From Ciceribacter sp. L1K22 (GTDB lineage Bacteria; Pseudomonadota; Alphaproteobacteria; Rhizobiales; Rhizobiaceae), in assembly GCF_017599385.1 (NCBI RefSeq), contig NZ_JAGFPK010000001.1:622177-686176 (forward strand): DNA of 64,000 bases, in the 5' to 3' direction. Shown piece by piece: positions 812-10,095 of the stretch. The position numbers and the translations under genes are program-made. The notes beneath the pieces are model-generated. The model made no database searches and had not been told where the DNA came from. It saw only the letters and a program-made list of their open reading frames with translations. Every line of letters starts with the position of its first letter. Positions within the stretch are counted from its first letter, which is position 1.

Positions 812-2431
812 TTGAAGAAGTATCTGACACTCGTCCTGGTCATGACGGTGCTGGCGGCGGGAGCCGTGATGACCCTGCTTGCCTGGGACTCCGAGAGACG
901 CGCCACTCGCGCCGCCTTCGATGTGACGAGCGACGAATTCGTCCACCGTGTCGAAAGCCGGCTGCAGCAGCATATGGCGCTGATCACGGCGACCGGCGCG
1001 TTCCTCGAAGCATCGGGAAGCGCGACCACGAGGGCATCGTTCCAGACGTTTGTCCGTGGGCTGAGGCTTGAAACCGACTTCGAGGGTATCCGGGGGATAG
1101 GTATGGCACTTATGGCTCCGGCCTCTCCGGCCGGCGATTCGGCGATCGAGGCGCTTATCCAGCGGAGCCATGATCTTGATCGACCCGTGTGGCCGCAGAC
1201 CGACCAGTTGCAGCGCGCGGTCATCGTGTTGCTGGAGCCGCAGGACGATCGCAACCGCGTGGCTCTCGGCTTCGACATGTTCAGCGAGGGGCGGCGACGC
1301 GAGGCGATGCTGAAAGCGCTGCAAAGCGGCCACATCCGCGGCTCGGCGCCGGTGGAGCTGGTTCAGGAGTATACCAACGAGAAGCAGCTGGGCTTCCTGC
1401 TCTATTTTCCGGTCAACCGCGCCCTCAACTCGCCGGTGTGGCAGGACGAGCCTTCCGGAATGGGTGGTTCAGGCTTTGCCTACGCACCGTTCCGTGCCGG
1501 CGACTTCTTCCGCTCCGTGCTCAAGAGCTTTCCAGACGGCTTTATCGAGGTCGAGGTCAGCGACACGGCGGGCGACGTTGCGGAAGTCCTGTTCCGCACG
1601 CCGGGCTTTTCCGAGGGGATATCGGATGCGGTGATGACCCGTTACGTGGTCGCTGCCGGACGCGAATGGACCCTGAGCGTTTATCCCGGTCCATCCTATC
1701 TCGTCACTCCGCATGTCTACACTGCGCTGATTGCCTTCATATCGGTGTTGCTCACGGTAACGCTGGCGATGGCGATGCGCTGGCAGGCGCGGGCGATGGC
1801 GGCGGTGGAGGCGCTGAACGCCGTTTCGCAGCGGACCATCGGTGAAAAGGATCTGATGCTGCAGGAGATGAAGCATCGCATCAAGAACTCCATCACCCGC
1901 ATCCTCGCCATGGCGCGCCAGACAGCGGCGCACTCGGCGTCCCTGGAGGATTTCACGGCCTCGTTCTTCGCCCGCCTTCAGGCCATGGCCAATGCGCAGG
2001 AAATGCTCACCAGATCGCGCTGGCAGAGGGCCGATCTTCGCGCGCTTCTCGAAACCGAGTTGAAACAGGTCTTCGGAGAGCAGAACGCAGGCGCCTTGCT
2101 GGAAGGCCCTCCCGTGGAACTTACCGAAGCAGCGACCCAGGCGCTCGGACTGACGTTTCATGAACTGGCGACCAATGCCCTGAAATATGGGGACTACGAC
2201 ACCGGCGCCGGCACGTTGTCGGTCCGCTGGAGGATCGAGAGACACGACGATCGTTCGTGGCTGCGGCTCGATTGGCAAGAAGCGACCCGGATCGACACGA
2301 GCAAGATCACAAAGGCGGGCTTTGGCACGCGGCTGATCGACGCCAGTATCAGGCTCGAACTGGGCGGCGTGATAGAGCGTGATATTGCCGGTGACGGTCT
2401 TCGGATCCGCATCGAGATCCCGCTGACTTAA
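812..2431 (+). CDS. Membrane sensor kinase with CHASE domain, HWE family
   Basis: 539 residues. TM helix at about 5-25, extracytoplasmic CHASE-like region about 75-240, second TM about 302-322, then an HWE-type kinase core. The phospho-acceptor is His355 in EMKHRIKN. The N box HELATNALKYG is followed by LDWQEA, whose W-x-E is the HWE hallmark. It probably senses a small extracellular ligand and passes phosphate to a stand-alone receiver. No partner regulator is adjacent; PhyR, 1.4 kb downstream, is a plausible target because HWE kinases often feed it, but that is inference. The start is a TTG at 812 after AAGGCAGG; an ATG at 798 hits a stop after five codons, and the internal ATG at 842 would cut into the first TM helix. 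Confidence 0.85.
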   Translation: MKKYLTLVLVMTVLAAGAVMTLLAWDSERRATRAAFDVTSDEFVHRVESRLQQHMALITATGAFLEASGSATTRASFQTFVRGLRLETDFEGIRGIGMALMAPASPAGDSAIEALIQRSHDLDRPVWPQTDQLQRAVIVLLEPQDDRNRVALGFDMFSEGRRREAMLKALQSGHIRGSAPVELVQEYTNEKQLGFLLYFPVNRALNSPVWQDEPSGMGGSGFAYAPFRAGDFFRSVLKSFPDGFIEVEVSDTAGDVAEVLFRTPGFSEGISDAVMTRYVVAAGREWTLSVYPGPSYLVTPHVYTALIAFISVLLTVTLAMAMRWQARAMAAVEALNAVSQRTIGEKDLMLQEMKHRIKNSITRILAMARQTAAHSASLEDFTASFFARLQAMANAQEMLTRSRWQRADLRALLETELKQVFGEQNAGALLEGPPVELTEAATQALGLTFHELATNALKYGDYDTGAGTLSVRWRIERHDDRSWLRLDWQEATRIDTSKITKAGFGTRLIDASIRLELGGVIERDIAGDGLRIRIEIPLT

Positions 2432-3794: not shown

Positions 3795-4589
3795 ATGTCT
3801 TTGACCACCCGCGTCGCGGCTCACCTGCCGTATCTGCGTCGTTATGCTCGTGCTGTGACGGGTTCTCAAACTTCGGGGGATGCATACGTTGCCGCTTGCC
3901 TTGAGGCACTGATCGCGGATCTCTCGGTATTTCCGAACGCGTCCGATGATCGTATCTCTCTATACAAACTGTTTGTATCTATTTTTCAGTCGGCTGACGT
4001 CGAGGTCCGGCCGATCGAATCGCCGTTCGCTTGGGAGCAGCGTGCGGCTGCCAATCTCGCTCTTGTGCCAACTCAGGCGCGTCATGCGTTCCTTCTCGTT
4101 TCCGTCGAGGGATTTTCGCGAGAGGAAGCAGCAGAAGTCCTGAGTGTCTCTCCGCAGGAAATCGACAGCCTTCTGTCGGAAGCCTCCACGGAAATCTCCA
4201 GGCAGGTTGCCACGGACGTGATGATCATCGAGGACGAGCCGCTGATCGCTCTGGATATCGAGCAGATGGTCAGCGATCTCGGGCACAACGTCACGGGTAT
4301 CGCCCGCACGCACACGGAAGCGGTGGAACTCTTTTCTCGCACGAACCCCAAAATGGTTCTAGCCGATATTCAGCTGGCGGACGGCAGCTCCGGCATCGAC
4401 GCCATCAATGACATCTTGCGGGTATCTACCGTTCCTGTCATCTTCATTACGGCTTTCCCGGAACGACTTCTGACGGGCGAGCGACCGGAGCCGGCCTTCC
4501 TTGTGACCAAACCATTCAATCCGGACATGGTGAAGGCTTTGATCAGTCAGGCGCTTTTTTTCAATGATGGTGAGCGCAAGGCTGCCTAG
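3795..4589 (+). CDS. phyR: PhyR general stress response regulator
   Basis: 264 residues, normal for the family. Residues 1-135 are the sigma-factor-like domain (the sigma4-like part includes EGFSREEAAEVLSVSPQEI). Residues 141-255 are a receiver with the acidic pair Glu146/Asp147, phospho-acceptor Asp191 (VLADIQL), Thr219 (FITAF) and Lys239 (TKPF). On phosphorylation PhyR binds NepR through its sigma mimic and frees EcfG. The start ATG at 3795 follows TAGGAG at 3781-3786; longer in-frame translation would read through the promoter. An HWE kinase gene follows 92 bases downstream on the same strand, and nepR1 is divergent, so the partner-switch is complete at this locus together with nepR2-ecfG 3.5 kb away. 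Confidence 0.96.
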   Translation: MSLTTRVAAHLPYLRRYARAVTGSQTSGDAYVAACLEALIADLSVFPNASDDRISLYKLFVSIFQSADVEVRPIESPFAWEQRAAANLALVPTQARHAFLLVSVEGFSREEAAEVLSVSPQEIDSLLSEASTEISRQVATDVMIIEDEPLIALDIEQMVSDLGHNVTGIARTHTEAVELFSRTNPKMVLADIQLADGSSGIDAINDILRVSTVPVIFITAFPERLLTGERPEPAFLVTKPFNPDMVKALISQALFFNDGERKAA

Positions 4590-4681: not shown

Positions 4682-5680
4682 GTGGTGCAACGGCTGAAAT
4701 GGCACAAGCAAGGCCTGGCCGACGATACTTTGCTTGAGTTCTTCATCTCGACCCTCGTCGAGATGAAGGCTTCGCTTATCCTCCAGGACACGGATCTCAA
4801 CTATCTGTGTGTTACGGGCCTACCGGAATACTGGACACTCATGCCCGACGATACGCCGAGTGACATATCGGTGTTCGGCGAGGAGCATGGCGTGAAGCTC
4901 GAGGATCTCAAGCGGTCATTGCTAACGACTGGAGAGCAGGCTGAACTCGAGCTGACCATGGCACCGGACATGGTCTTCCAGTTTCGCATCCATACGTTCA
5001 AAACGGCGGACCGCATATACATAGCCACTGTCGTGCTCGATCGAAGCGAGGACTTGCGTCGGGAGAAGCTCCTGCGGGCGCTCCTGCGCGAGGTGAGTCA
5101 TCGCTCAAAGAACCTTCTGGCGATCATTCAGAGCATCGCGGCGCAGACGGCCAGGTATTCCGACAGTCTATCCGGTTTTCTGGAGAAATTCCGCGGGCGG
5201 CTCCATTCCCTGTCGCAATCCCAGGACCTGATCACAGACTCAAGTTGGCGGGGCGCCTATTTCGTGGATCTTCTCCGCCATCAGACGGACAAGTATCTGG
5301 CCGACCAGACCGATATCATCGAGCTGTCCGGTGACGACACCTTGCTGTCGCCCAACGCGTCGCTGCATCTCGGACTCGCTCTCCACGAGCTGATCGTCAA
5401 CGCGGTCATTCACGGCGATATCGTTGGCAGTGGGAAGCGGATCAAGGTTGCGAGTCACAAGATCGACAGGAATGGTGTTCCTCATCTGAGGATCACGTGG
5501 CACGAACCGCGAAGCATCGGTCCCGAAATGGATCCGGATGGTAAACGCGCAATGTCCTTCGGCAGCACCGTGCTGGAGCGCGTTGTTCCCGCGTCCGTCA
5601 ACGGAACGGCCACCTATAGCATCGGTAAGAGCGCCGTCAGCTACGAGCTTGTCTTTCCGCTCGATGAGGCGGCCGAATAG
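4682..5680 (+). CDS. Soluble PAS-like HWE histidine kinase, probable PhyR kinase
   Basis: 332 residues, no TM segment. An N-terminal PAS-like region (about 20-120) precedes the kinase core: phospho-acceptor His140 in REVSHRSKN, N box LHELIVNAVIHG, and ITWHEPRS carrying the W-x-E of the HWE family. Kinases of the HWE/HisKA_2 class are the known phosphodonors of PhyR, and the gene follows phyR directly, so it is the best candidate for the local PhyR kinase; direct phosphotransfer is inferred. The start is GTG at 4682 or 4685, with GATGGAG at 4669-4675 as the ribosome site. The lack of membrane helices implies a cytoplasmic signal. Confidence 0.85.
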   Translation: MVQRLKWHKQGLADDTLLEFFISTLVEMKASLILQDTDLNYLCVTGLPEYWTLMPDDTPSDISVFGEEHGVKLEDLKRSLLTTGEQAELELTMAPDMVFQFRIHTFKTADRIYIATVVLDRSEDLRREKLLRALLREVSHRSKNLLAIIQSIAAQTARYSDSLSGFLEKFRGRLHSLSQSQDLITDSSWRGAYFVDLLRHQTDKYLADQTDIIELSGDDTLLSPNASLHLGLALHELIVNAVIHGDIVGSGKRIKVASHKIDRNGVPHLRITWHEPRSIGPEMDPDGKRAMSFGSTVLERVVPASVNGTATYSIGKSAVSYELVFPLDEAAE

Positions 5681-8041: not shown

Positions 8042-8254
8042 ATGAAGACACTTGAAACCCATCGTGCCGACGAGATCGCTTCGCGCAATCTCGACGCCAC
8101 GCCTGAAAGCAGTGACGCGATATCGCGCCGGCTGCGGCATTTTTACGACTCCGTGCAGGAAGAAACGATTCCCGACCGTTTTCTGCAACTGCTGGAAATG
8201 CTGGAAGAAGCAGAAGAGCGCCATGCAGCTCGCAACAATAGAGCAGAGGGCTGA
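8042..8254 (+). CDS. nepR: NepR-family anti-sigma factor, paralogue 2
   Basis: 70 residues. The core ISRRLRHFYDSVQEETIPDRFLQLLEML is the NepR signature, with a Glu/Arg-rich tail. It lies 5 bases upstream of ecfG, the classical anti-sigma/sigma pairing, and is therefore the primary candidate for direct EcfG control. It shares the FYD..EE..PDR.L.LLE pattern with NepR1 at 3450 but little else. The ATG at 8042 is the only reasonable start; the upstream ribosome site (GGCTGGAC) is weak, which would keep its synthesis low relative to transcription. Confidence 0.92.
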   Translation: MKTLETHRADEIASRNLDATPESSDAISRRLRHFYDSVQEETIPDRFLQLLEMLEEAEERHAARNNRAEG

Positions 8255-8259
8255 ACCAT

Positions 8260-8826
8260 ATGACCGTTGACGCGACTGCCGAAGACCGTGTCTTCAAGCG
8301 GGATTTGCTTGCGGCCCTCCCCGGTTTGCGAGCCTTTGCCGTATCCCTGAGCGGCAATCACGACAAAGCAGACGATCTGCTTCAGGACACAATCATGAAG
8401 GCGTGGGCGAAAAGGGACAGTTTCCAGCCGGGGACGAACCTGAAGGCATGGTTGTTTACGATTCTGCGCAACGAATTCTATAGCCAGATGCGCAAGCGCG
8501 GGCGTGAGGTTCAGGACAGCGACGGCTTCTTCTCCGAACGACTGGCGACACACCCGGGTCAGTACGGCGCGCTCGATCTGCAGGACTTCAAGAAGGCGCT
8601 CGAGCAATTGCCTGACGACCAGAGGGAGGCCATCATCCTCGTGGGCGCATCCGGATTTGCCTATGAGGAAGCTGCGGAGATTTGCGGCTGCGCGATCGGC
8701 ACGATCAAGAGCCGTGTGAACCGCGCAAGACGTCGCCTCCAGGAGTTGCTGCAGGTCTCCGGTGAATCGGAATACGGACCCGACAATCAATCGGCTGCGG
8801 TCACCAAGACCGCATTCGCAATCTAG
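8260..8826 (+). CDS. ecfG: ECF15 sigma factor EcfG, general stress response
   Basis: 188 residues. Region 2 includes DLLQDTIMKAWAKRDSFQPGTNLKAWLFTILRN, the typical EcfG sigma2 end. Region 4 includes LPDDQREAIILVGASGFAYEEAAEICGCAIGTIKSRVNRARRRLQ with its HTH. It directs RNA polymerase to GGAAC-N16/17-CGTT promoters, seven of which are visible in this window. NepR holds it inactive until PhyR is phosphorylated. GAGGG within the end of nepR2 serves as its ribosome site. The last codons and stop overlap the stop of the convergent receiver-like gene by 4 bases. Confidence 0.96.
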   Translation: MTVDATAEDRVFKRDLLAALPGLRAFAVSLSGNHDKADDLLQDTIMKAWAKRDSFQPGTNLKAWLFTILRNEFYSQMRKRGREVQDSDGFFSERLATHPGQYGALDLQDFKKALEQLPDDQREAIILVGASGFAYEEAAEICGCAIGTIKSRVNRARRRLQELLQVSGESEYGPDNQSAAVTKTAFAI

Positions 8827-9203
8827 CCGGTGTCCGAACGTCGCTGAAGGCGTTCAGCGGCGACGAAAAGCGCGTGGACGAGCCTCTCATCGAGGAAGGG
8901 CAGGTCGACCACCGGCCAACCACGGCAGCTGTCCAGCAAATACCCTTCGGGAGTAACGGTGGAGGCGAAGACGATCCCACGTCCCTTCGCCTCCGCCATT
9001 CTTGCGTGCTCAAGATTCTGGCGCGGGTTGCCCCCAAGGCGCGTTAGCGCCACATCGAAGGCCTCAGTCTCAAGTGCATCTTGCAGGTTCGCCGGGAGTA
9101 TGACAGCCTCCCATCCAGCGACGTCCATGATCGCACGCTGAAGATCGAGCGCGATGAAGTATTCCATTTCCAAGACCGCAACACGCAGTATCGGGGTGCT
9201 CAT
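8823..9203 (-). CDS. Receiver-like protein lacking the phospho-acceptor (pseudo-receiver)
   Basis: 126 residues. The pattern VAVLEMEYFIALDLQ matches the start of FixJ/PhyR-like receivers (usual form VxExxxxIALDL), but the second acidic residue is Met13. The phospho-acceptor position after FDVALT is Arg55 where Asp is expected, and the Lys-Pro switch position reads LPF (residues 101-103). The fold therefore looks retained while three catalytic positions are lost. It ends tail-to-tail with ecfG and is divergent from a Crp/Fnr gene, so context suggests a protein-interaction role in stress signalling; this is inference. The start at 9203 is the first ATG that gives a complete beta1. Confidence 0.75.
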   Translation of the reverse strand: MSTPILRVAVLEMEYFIALDLQRAIMDVAGWEAVILPANLQDALETEAFDVALTRLGGNPRQNLEHARMAEAKGRGIVFASTVTPEGYLLDSCRGWPVVDLPFLDERLVHALFVAAERLQRRSDTG

Positions 9204-9242
9204 GAATCGGTTCCTCGTTAAGAAACCACAAGGTGCCGAAAC

Positions 9243-9269
9243 GACATCGATGTCATTTAAAAATGACAT
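9243..9269. promoter_or_regulatory. Overlapping palindromes between pseudo-receiver and Crp/Fnr genes
   Basis: A perfect 12-base palindrome (9243-9254) overlaps a second one (9250-9269, 9-base arms around AA). Together they present three GACAT half-sites (9243-9247, 9250-9254 inverted, 9265-9269). The position between divergent genes suggests an operator, possibly for the Crp/Fnr protein itself. Confidence 0.45.
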
Positions 9270-9308: not shown

Positions 9309-10064
9309 ATGGCTCGGCAGGTTGTGCATCACGCAGCTCGGGTGCCGTGCCACGAATGTCCTCTGAGAGAGTGCAGTCCGTTTCGTGAGTTTACGGAGCC
9401 TGAACTCGACTTCATGGAGGGCTTCAAGAAGGGCGAACTGATTACCGACAGGGGTACGACGATCGTCGCGCAGGCCAGCCATGGCCCGCATTTTTACACA
9501 GTCCTTTCCGGCATGGCCTTTCGTTACAAGTTGCTCGAGGACGGCCGGCGCCAGATCCTGAACTACCTCTTTCCCGGCGACCTTATGGGACTGCAGTCGG
9601 CACTCCTGGACGAGATGCAGCATTCGGTCGAAGCGCTGACACCGATGAAGCTCTGCATCTTTGAAAAGGAAAAGATCGGCGAGCTCTATCGCAAGCATGC
9701 CGGTCTCGCCTACGACATCACGTGGATCGCGGCACAGGAGGAGCGGATACTCGACGAACATCTGCTGAGCGTCGGTCGCCGGTCGGCCATCGAGAGGGCG
9801 GCCTATCTTCTGGCATTCCTGTCCATGCGGGCCAAATCACTGCGGCGCCAGGCTGGCATCAATGGAGCACTCCCGATCACCCAGACGCACGTGGCCGACA
9901 CGCTGGGCCTTTCGATCGTCCACACCAACAAGACGCTGCGCAAGCTGCAGCAGCGCGGCATGGTGCGTTGGCTGGAGCGGGGCTGCGAGATCCTTGACGA
10001 AACCGGGCTGCAGGAACTGGCGGGTTGGGAAGCGTCCCCAGCGGGTCGCCGTCCGTTTATTTGA
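9309..10064 (+). CDS. Crp/Fnr family transcription regulator
   Basis: 251 residues. A cAMP-binding-like beta-barrel (about 35-150) is followed by a C-terminal winged HTH (ITQTHVADTLGLSIVHTNKTLRKL, about 190-213). The N-terminus has CHECPLREC (Cys14, Cys17, Cys22) and one further Cys in LCIFEK near 116, reminiscent of Fnr Fe-S ligands, but the spacing differs from E. coli Fnr and many rhizobial relatives with this motif have no shown cluster. The ligand is therefore unknown. The gene is divergent from the pseudo-receiver across overlapping palindromes. The ATG at 9309 has a poor ribosome site; no better in-frame start is visible. Confidence 0.85.
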   Translation: MARQVVHHAARVPCHECPLRECSPFREFTEPELDFMEGFKKGELITDRGTTIVAQASHGPHFYTVLSGMAFRYKLLEDGRRQILNYLFPGDLMGLQSALLDEMQHSVEALTPMKLCIFEKEKIGELYRKHAGLAYDITWIAAQEERILDEHLLSVGRRSAIERAAYLLAFLSMRAKSLRRQAGINGALPITQTHVADTLGLSIVHTNKTLRKLQQRGMVRWLERGCEILDETGLQELAGWEASPAGRRPFI

Positions 10065-10069
10065 GCAAT

Positions 10070-10095
10070 GGAACCTTCTGTATCATCCGGCCGTT
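10070..10095 (+). promoter_or_regulatory. EcfG-type promoter for csbD
   Basis: GGAAC at 10070-10074, 17-base spacer, CGTT at 10092-10095. The predicted start near 10102 leaves about 26 bases with AAGGAG at 10115-10120. CsbD genes are classical GSR targets. Confidence 0.82.

Follow-up and report, generated by a model that had tools for sequence, protein, structure and literature searches.

SdrG of Sphingomonas, MrrA of Caulobacter and Sma0114 of S. meliloti – receivers of the FATGUY type – each consist of a single receiver domain, and SdrG and MrrA are part of the alphaproteobacterial general stress response (GSR). These latter two are described in PMC5898713 and PMC5964349 as carrying phosphate between HWE/HisKA2 kinases, PhyT/PhyK, and on to PhyR, and FATGUY receivers such as MrrA are called promiscuous for kinases in PMC5964349. 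According to PMC5898713, an sdrG mutant is rescued by the wild type only and not by D56E, with D56A as the negative control. Because SdrG requires its Asp, a copy without the phospho-site cannot do the relay job.

Receivers lacking catalytic residues have also been described. A 2025 review, PMC12632262, gives substitution of DD2 by Asn and of D by Glu as the general trend among pseudo-receivers, and calls the on/off switching of the bacterial ones a mystery. Arg at the Asp position is recorded in 63 aspartate-less receivers in PMC4395418. Among the titles and abstract openings listed in a search of the open-access literature there was no pseudo-receiver beside ecfG, and none on NepR with a pseudoreceiver.

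Here, we describe a pseudo-receiver gene convergent with ecfG in Ciceribacter sp. L1K22. The window is the whole stretch of DNA analysed, 64,000 nt long (GCF_017599385.1, contig NZ_JAGFPK010000001.1, 622,177-686,176); 'the genus' is that of the window genome, and 63 of its genomes were compared. The metal site has been lost in all scoreable genus copies, the linkage to ecfG is also conserved, and the window protein has further lost the phospho-Asp and the Lys. We tentatively favor a role in which the protein docks without phosphate on the HWE kinase or kinases of the GSR and thereby lowers or adjusts the phosphorylation of PhyR and the activity of EcfG, a reading to which we give somewhat less than even confidence.

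The convergent gene, its locus and its receiver ancestry

A sequence-only reading of this DNA had proposed a receiver-like frame, tail-to-tail with ecfG in a GSR locus, and its account of the gene and neighborhood agrees with ours (Table 1). The ecfG stop lies at 8824-8826 and the two frames overlap by 4 bp, at 8823-8826; NepR, the sigma factor and the HWE kinase are recognized by Pfam, and PhyR by its sequence together with PF00072. G+C by codon position in the pseudo-receiver gene (0.71/0.43/0.69) is similar to that of ecfG and phyR. The PhyR receiver keeps ED, D, T and K. The GSR locus also contains a lineage-specific addition, the HWE kinase at 812-2431, which has matches at E<=1e-50 in 2/63 genus genomes, the window genome among them.

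Table 1. Features of the GSR locus in the window
Feature	Position	Strand	Remarks
Other HWE kinase, long N-terminal part	812..2431	+	PF07536 match
phyR	3795..4589	+	Named by reading its sequence; PF00072 match at the same place
HWE histidine kinase (locus kinase)	4682..5680	+	PF07536, 1.5e-24
nepR anti-sigma factor	8042..8254	+	PF18557, E 1.1e-14
ecfG sigma factor	8260..8826	+	Pfam sigma70 r2, r4; present in 63/63 genus genomes
Pseudo-receiver ORF	8823..9203	-	126 aa, ATG start, TAG stop; E12 M13 / R55 / S81 / L101
Helix 1 stretch EYFIALDLQRAI, residues 14-25	9129..9164	-	Conserved, possible docking signature
Ribosome-binding-like site GAGGAAC	9210..9216	-	Directly 5' of the ATG at 9203 (read from sequence)
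Crp/Fnr-type regulator	9309..10064	+	PF00027, PF13545; divergent from the pseudo-receiver

Searches with the pseudo-receiver protein alone returned nothing in Pfam up to E = 10, the protein itself as the sole match at E<=10 in its own genome, and one unrelated PDB sequence (E = 0.55). A profile (A1) of 28 syntenic homologues, the window protein included and drawn from 60 altered rows, found 2lpm, which we take to be Sma0114, first among PDB sequences (1.9e-15), with PhyR (4qic, 6.6e-8) and SdrG (5ieb, 2.2e-7) both within the top 11. It also aligned with a profile (A2) of the canonical family, made from 18 of 20 canonical rows, with a probability of 99.7, so that the protein is, as the earlier reading had it, a receiver relative. 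PF00072 was matched at E<=0.1 by 16/28 members of A1 (best 3.3e-4), and the window protein alone was unmatched. In these comparisons receiver homology is clear at the profile level and invisible from the single sequence. AlphaFold2 run from the single sequence only gave a model with pLDDT 60.4 (35-43 for the remaining four), and Foldseek with this model found nothing in the PDB at E<=0.001 (best E 0.17) and no receiver among the best 50 of 580 matches, the top ones being mostly peroxiredoxins; with such a pLDDT and no significant match the model is uninformative, and is no evidence against a receiver fold.

Whole-genome searches with the window protein gave matches in 52/151 family genomes (E<=0.01), and 53/63 genus genomes were matched at E<=0.001. 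Using a 42-protein profile, which includes 16 genus copies and is therefore not independent of the genus count, the gene was found in 57/63 genus genomes, just downstream of ecfG and on the opposite strand; in the other six (G170, G163, G186, G203, G174 and G209) nothing significant was found in the ecfG-flanking stretch examined. The family search yielded 58 places, of which the 30 scoring best against the window protein were taken as loci, 28 of them from other genera. L016 and L029, which are not syntenic, were dropped before the first alignment, L031 was left out, and L081 is cut off by the end of its contig. Three further copies, with fnr adjacent and ecfG not found in the stretch, stand outside the 23 tabulated from other genera; two of them (L018 and L027) look canonical and the third (L022) is altered (Q12, K13).

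Nearly all relatives in the fetched loci are single-domain receivers convergent to ecfG, and a crp/fnr gene was detected behind the receiver in 55/63 genus stretches and 21/23 of the tabulated others. In the genome of the sister copy (L046 in G202), crp/fnr was not detected in the stretch fetched beside the pseudo-receiver. The arrangement is not universal, since S. meliloti carries a PAS-domain protein gene downstream of its ecfG homologue, and Pseudochrobactrum a PAS sensor kinase gene downstream of ecfG, in the receiver's stead. Plasmids gave no match to the protein. A DNA-pattern scan for close orthologues gave one locus, in a betaproteobacterial MAG, which was set aside with 35 residues matched. 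On the best reading, the gene probably stems from a single-domain receiver of the FATGUY type, in the copy linked to ecfG, and has become a pseudo-receiver.

Loss of phosphotransfer residues and constraint on the coding sequence

Three of the five key phosphotransfer residues are gone from the window protein: as first reported from the sequence, the alignment places M13 at the second acidic position, R55 at the phospho-Asp and L101 at the Lys, with E12 and S81 (the Thr/Ser position) kept. The Mg-binding Asp, phospho-Asp and Lys being absent, the protein should neither take nor give phosphate. Among the 23 other-genus copies, chosen as top-scoring matches to the window protein and no random sample, 20 have all five residues (E-D, D, T/S, K) together with a FATGUY-like PF(V/I)FA(T/S)G stretch; Asp55 is kept by 21 and Asp13 by 20. 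Within the genus Asp13 is found in 0/56 scoreable copies (N 33, K 13, S 7, T 2, M 1), position 55 is D in 46, E in 8 and R, G or A in one each (n=57), and position 101 is K in 55, L in 1 and I in 1 (n=57). Asp55 and Lys101 are both lost, within the genus, only in the window protein and the G202 copy, and one copy from another genus (L012) is nearly as altered (N13, E55, I101).

The genus copies follow the trend from DD2 to Asn and from D to Glu reported for pseudo-receivers. Glu occupies the phospho-site in 10/80 tabulated syntenic receivers, on several separate branches of the tree (L039, L040, L051, L052, L054, L098, L077 and L107 in the genus, L012 and L023 outside it). Substitution of this Asp by Glu can mimic phosphorylation in some receivers. 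Conservation of the Arg, which had been suggested as a check, was not borne out: position 55 is Gly in the sister and Asp, Glu or Ala in others, so Arg55 itself is probably not a functional feature. The concern that orthologues would keep the Asp and this copy alone be decaying holds in its first part, for Asp55 is present in most copies inside and outside the genus, and is weakened in its second by the absence of Asp13 from all scoreable genus copies and by the coding constraint on the dead pair.

Another altered receiver was seen elsewhere in the window genome (L120:9056-9616 (+), contig C1 near 3379271). It carries the helix-1 signature defined below, has Glu at the phospho-Asp position (VAVIEASV) and keeps E-D and K; a further ecfG-like gene (C1:3376847-3377308) is situated ~2 kb away. 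The two genes would make up another locus of the GSR type in which the receiver is altered.

The receiver tree has few columns and long branches and was drawn from the midpoint. In it the pair formed by the window protein and its G202 sister (97/90) adjoins the canonical clade and L023, and does not group with the other genus copies (94/83). The fewest changes on this tree are one for Asp13, eight for position 55 (D/E/other) and two for Lys101; because the dead pair is placed beside the canonical clade, neither the count for Asp13 nor the sequence in which the residues were lost is certain. Asp13 may have disappeared before the genus arose, or on more than one occasion.

The main rival of the docking reading is decay, in which a relay receiver that became redundant beside other FATGUY receivers is perhaps still expressed and has little function left; we regard this as rather unlikely. 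It would account for very fast divergence, the receivers of the window genome and G202 being 35% identical and their ecfG products 90%, for the gene not being found near ecfG in 6/63 genus genomes, and for a graded series from copies lacking Asp13 to those lacking Asp55 and Lys101 too, if the losses came in that order. Canonical or near-canonical FATGUY-type receivers are also encoded elsewhere in the genome (in the hybrid kinase L111 and as the single-domain L112 and L113). However, the G202 receiver is equally dead and both sisters have intact ORFs, with a plausible start and ribosome-binding site in the window. The pair differs at 48%, 33% and 69% of first, second and third codon positions, with 40/123 differences at second against 85/123 at third positions (Fisher 1.4e-8); NG86 gives dN 0.63 and dS 2.35, a dS near saturation that makes the ratio rough. 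By this measure the dead pair shows coding constraint, averaged over both lineages. In a neutral simulation of substitutions, with no indels in the model, the frame stayed open in ~6% of runs at 0.58 changes/site and in 2% at 1.15, which is suggestive, and not decisive, against decay, and helix 1 is preserved between the sisters.

Conservation of helix 1 and the putative kinase partner

Between the window protein and its sister, 10/12 residues are identical at positions 14-25 and 32/114 elsewhere (Fisher 2.8e-4, for a region picked post hoc). Sliding identity peaks at residues 13-24 (10/12) and next at ~97-111 (7/12 per sliding segment), and these two peaks fall on helix 1 and the beta5-alpha5 loop, which together make up the face of a receiver that docks on kinase dimerization helices. 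Measured against the commonest residue in the genus or in other genera, helix 1 of the window protein scores 4/13 each, no better than several other regions; its concentration of identity is, on these alignments, confined to the comparison of the two sisters and to a short signature. Helix 1 holds core residues too, and part of its conservation may thus be structural.

The signature, [FLM][IVL]A[LMIV][DEL] after the acidic pair, is present in PhyR, L111, L112, L113, L116, L117 and the window protein. In its strict or a looser form it is found in 0/49 other PF00072 receivers of the window genome (53 matches minus PhyR, L111, L112 and L113, checked as 30 + 19). It was defined after viewing the sequences, and generic receivers were compared within the window genome; as L111-L117 were picked out by their resemblance to a canonical relative, the sharing among them is partly selection, and the 0/49 is the informative side. 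In the syntenic family the strict form occurs in 52/57 genus copies (one miss being a truncated row) and 21/23 others, and the looser form in 56/57 and 23/23. The genome has eight HWE kinase matches; L111 shares its open frame with one, and the single-domain L112 and L113 each have such a match no more than 1 kb away.

The earlier suggestion of a phosphorylation-independent modulator of PhyR, NepR or the kinase stands as a natural hypothesis for a site-less receiver relative in a syntenic GSR locus, and among the three candidates the kinase is favored, owing to the conservation retained in helix 1 and, more weakly, in the beta5-alpha5 loop. Direct action on PhyR or NepR, for example through a receiver heterodimer in which PhyR is kept in a closed or an open state, we consider quite unlikely. 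The gene shares their locus, and heterodimers of receivers and pseudo-receivers are listed as a possibility in PMC12632262; against this, conservation among the genus copies is lowest in alpha4 (0.28), where the sisters have 1/8 residues in common. Receivers ordinarily dimerize and pass on their output through a face that includes alpha4.

A further alternative is that the protein no longer belongs to the stress pathway and instead responds to a ligand or works with some other protein, for which the divergently encoded Crp/Fnr regulator is one candidate. An fnr gene is a frequent neighbor, as noted above, and the intergenic region shared with crp/fnr contains a perfect palindrome (TGTCATTTAAAAATGACA, 9251-9268). 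We think this very unlikely, as the G202 sister keeps its receiver though fnr is undetected in its fetched stretch, helix 1 retains the signature of PhyR and FATGUY receivers, and the exact palindrome was not found in any locus from another genome among 122 loci, for which reason no reading was built on it. The exact pattern GGAAC-N15-18-CGTT, which we take to be that of EcfG-type promoters, is absent upstream of the pseudo-receiver. Across the window this pattern occurs nine times (2458, 2605, 3698, 5695, 10070, 10772, 20951, 24998 and 56001) against 2.5 expected, a number reached by 0/100 shuffles; the occurrence at 10070 is just upstream of a small ORF, presumably CsbD-like.

Under the docking reading, an ancestral FATGUY-type receiver would have taken phosphate from HWE/HisKA2 kinases and handed it toward PhyR. 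The window copy, stripped of the residues for phosphotransfer, would have retained the kinase-docking surface of helix 1 and part of that of the beta5-alpha5 loop. It could then occupy the HWE kinase(s) or phosphotransferases, where it would compete with PhyR and the other FATGUY receivers, so that PhyR phosphorylation and EcfG activity would be damped or tuned, at a dose set by expression of the pseudo-receiver. Such competition is proposed for other pseudo-receivers in PMC12632262. The putative sign is that of a brake, and an adaptor that stabilizes one kinase state would also fit these observations.

The locus kinase at 4682-5680 is the nearest and likeliest candidate partner. It matches at E<=1e-50 in 61/63 genus genomes, lies <=6 kb from ecfG in 57, and does not track the pseudo-receiver gene, being still present in 5/6 genomes without it. 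Co-occurrence was tried as a guide to the partner and rejected, the locus kinase being too common (61/63) to discriminate; for L112 (39/63 at E<=1e-15) many matches are hybrid kinases of ~850 aa, and nothing was drawn from them. Counting against docking are the 35% receiver identity, the apparent losses in 6/63 genomes, the comparison with consensus residues and the lack of an EcfG-type promoter upstream; fast change, the six apparent losses and the absent promoter pattern are compatible with weak importance.

Comparison with known receivers and pseudo-receivers

A broader proposal would be that the relay receiver beside ecfG was converted across the entire genus: the Mg site would have gone throughout and the phospho-Asp been replaced in several branches (by Glu, Ala, Gly or Arg), with the docking helix kept, leaving a protein that modulates the HWE stress kinases without phosphate and serves the GSR, according to its dose, as a decoy or brake; in this full form we find it doubtful. 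Copies at this locus form a natural gradation: those of sister genera are canonical and FATGUY-like, others lack Asp13, and some are fully dead. The pathway around them has known partners, and the idea of a binding competitor for kinases would become directly testable in it.

The window protein resembles SdrG, MrrA and Sma0114 in being a single receiver domain and in its profile ancestry, and the helix-1 signature is found in the FATGUY-type receivers of its own genome. It differs from them in lacking the phospho-Asp, the Mg-binding Asp and the Lys, and in having GIVFASTV at beta4 in place of the motif PFxFATG(G/Y) given in PMC5964349. Whereas sdrG of S. melonis is described in PMC5898713 as lying elsewhere in the genome, the window gene is convergent with ecfG. 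The PhyR receiver encoded in the same window has a like helix-1 signature, but PhyR keeps its catalytic residues and a sigma-like part. With the pseudo-receivers and aspartate-less receivers FrzS, CmrT and WhiI it has the loss of DD2, D and K in common; unlike them, it is a stand-alone protein with no output domain and no PF00072 match, encoded in a partner-switch sigma-factor locus.
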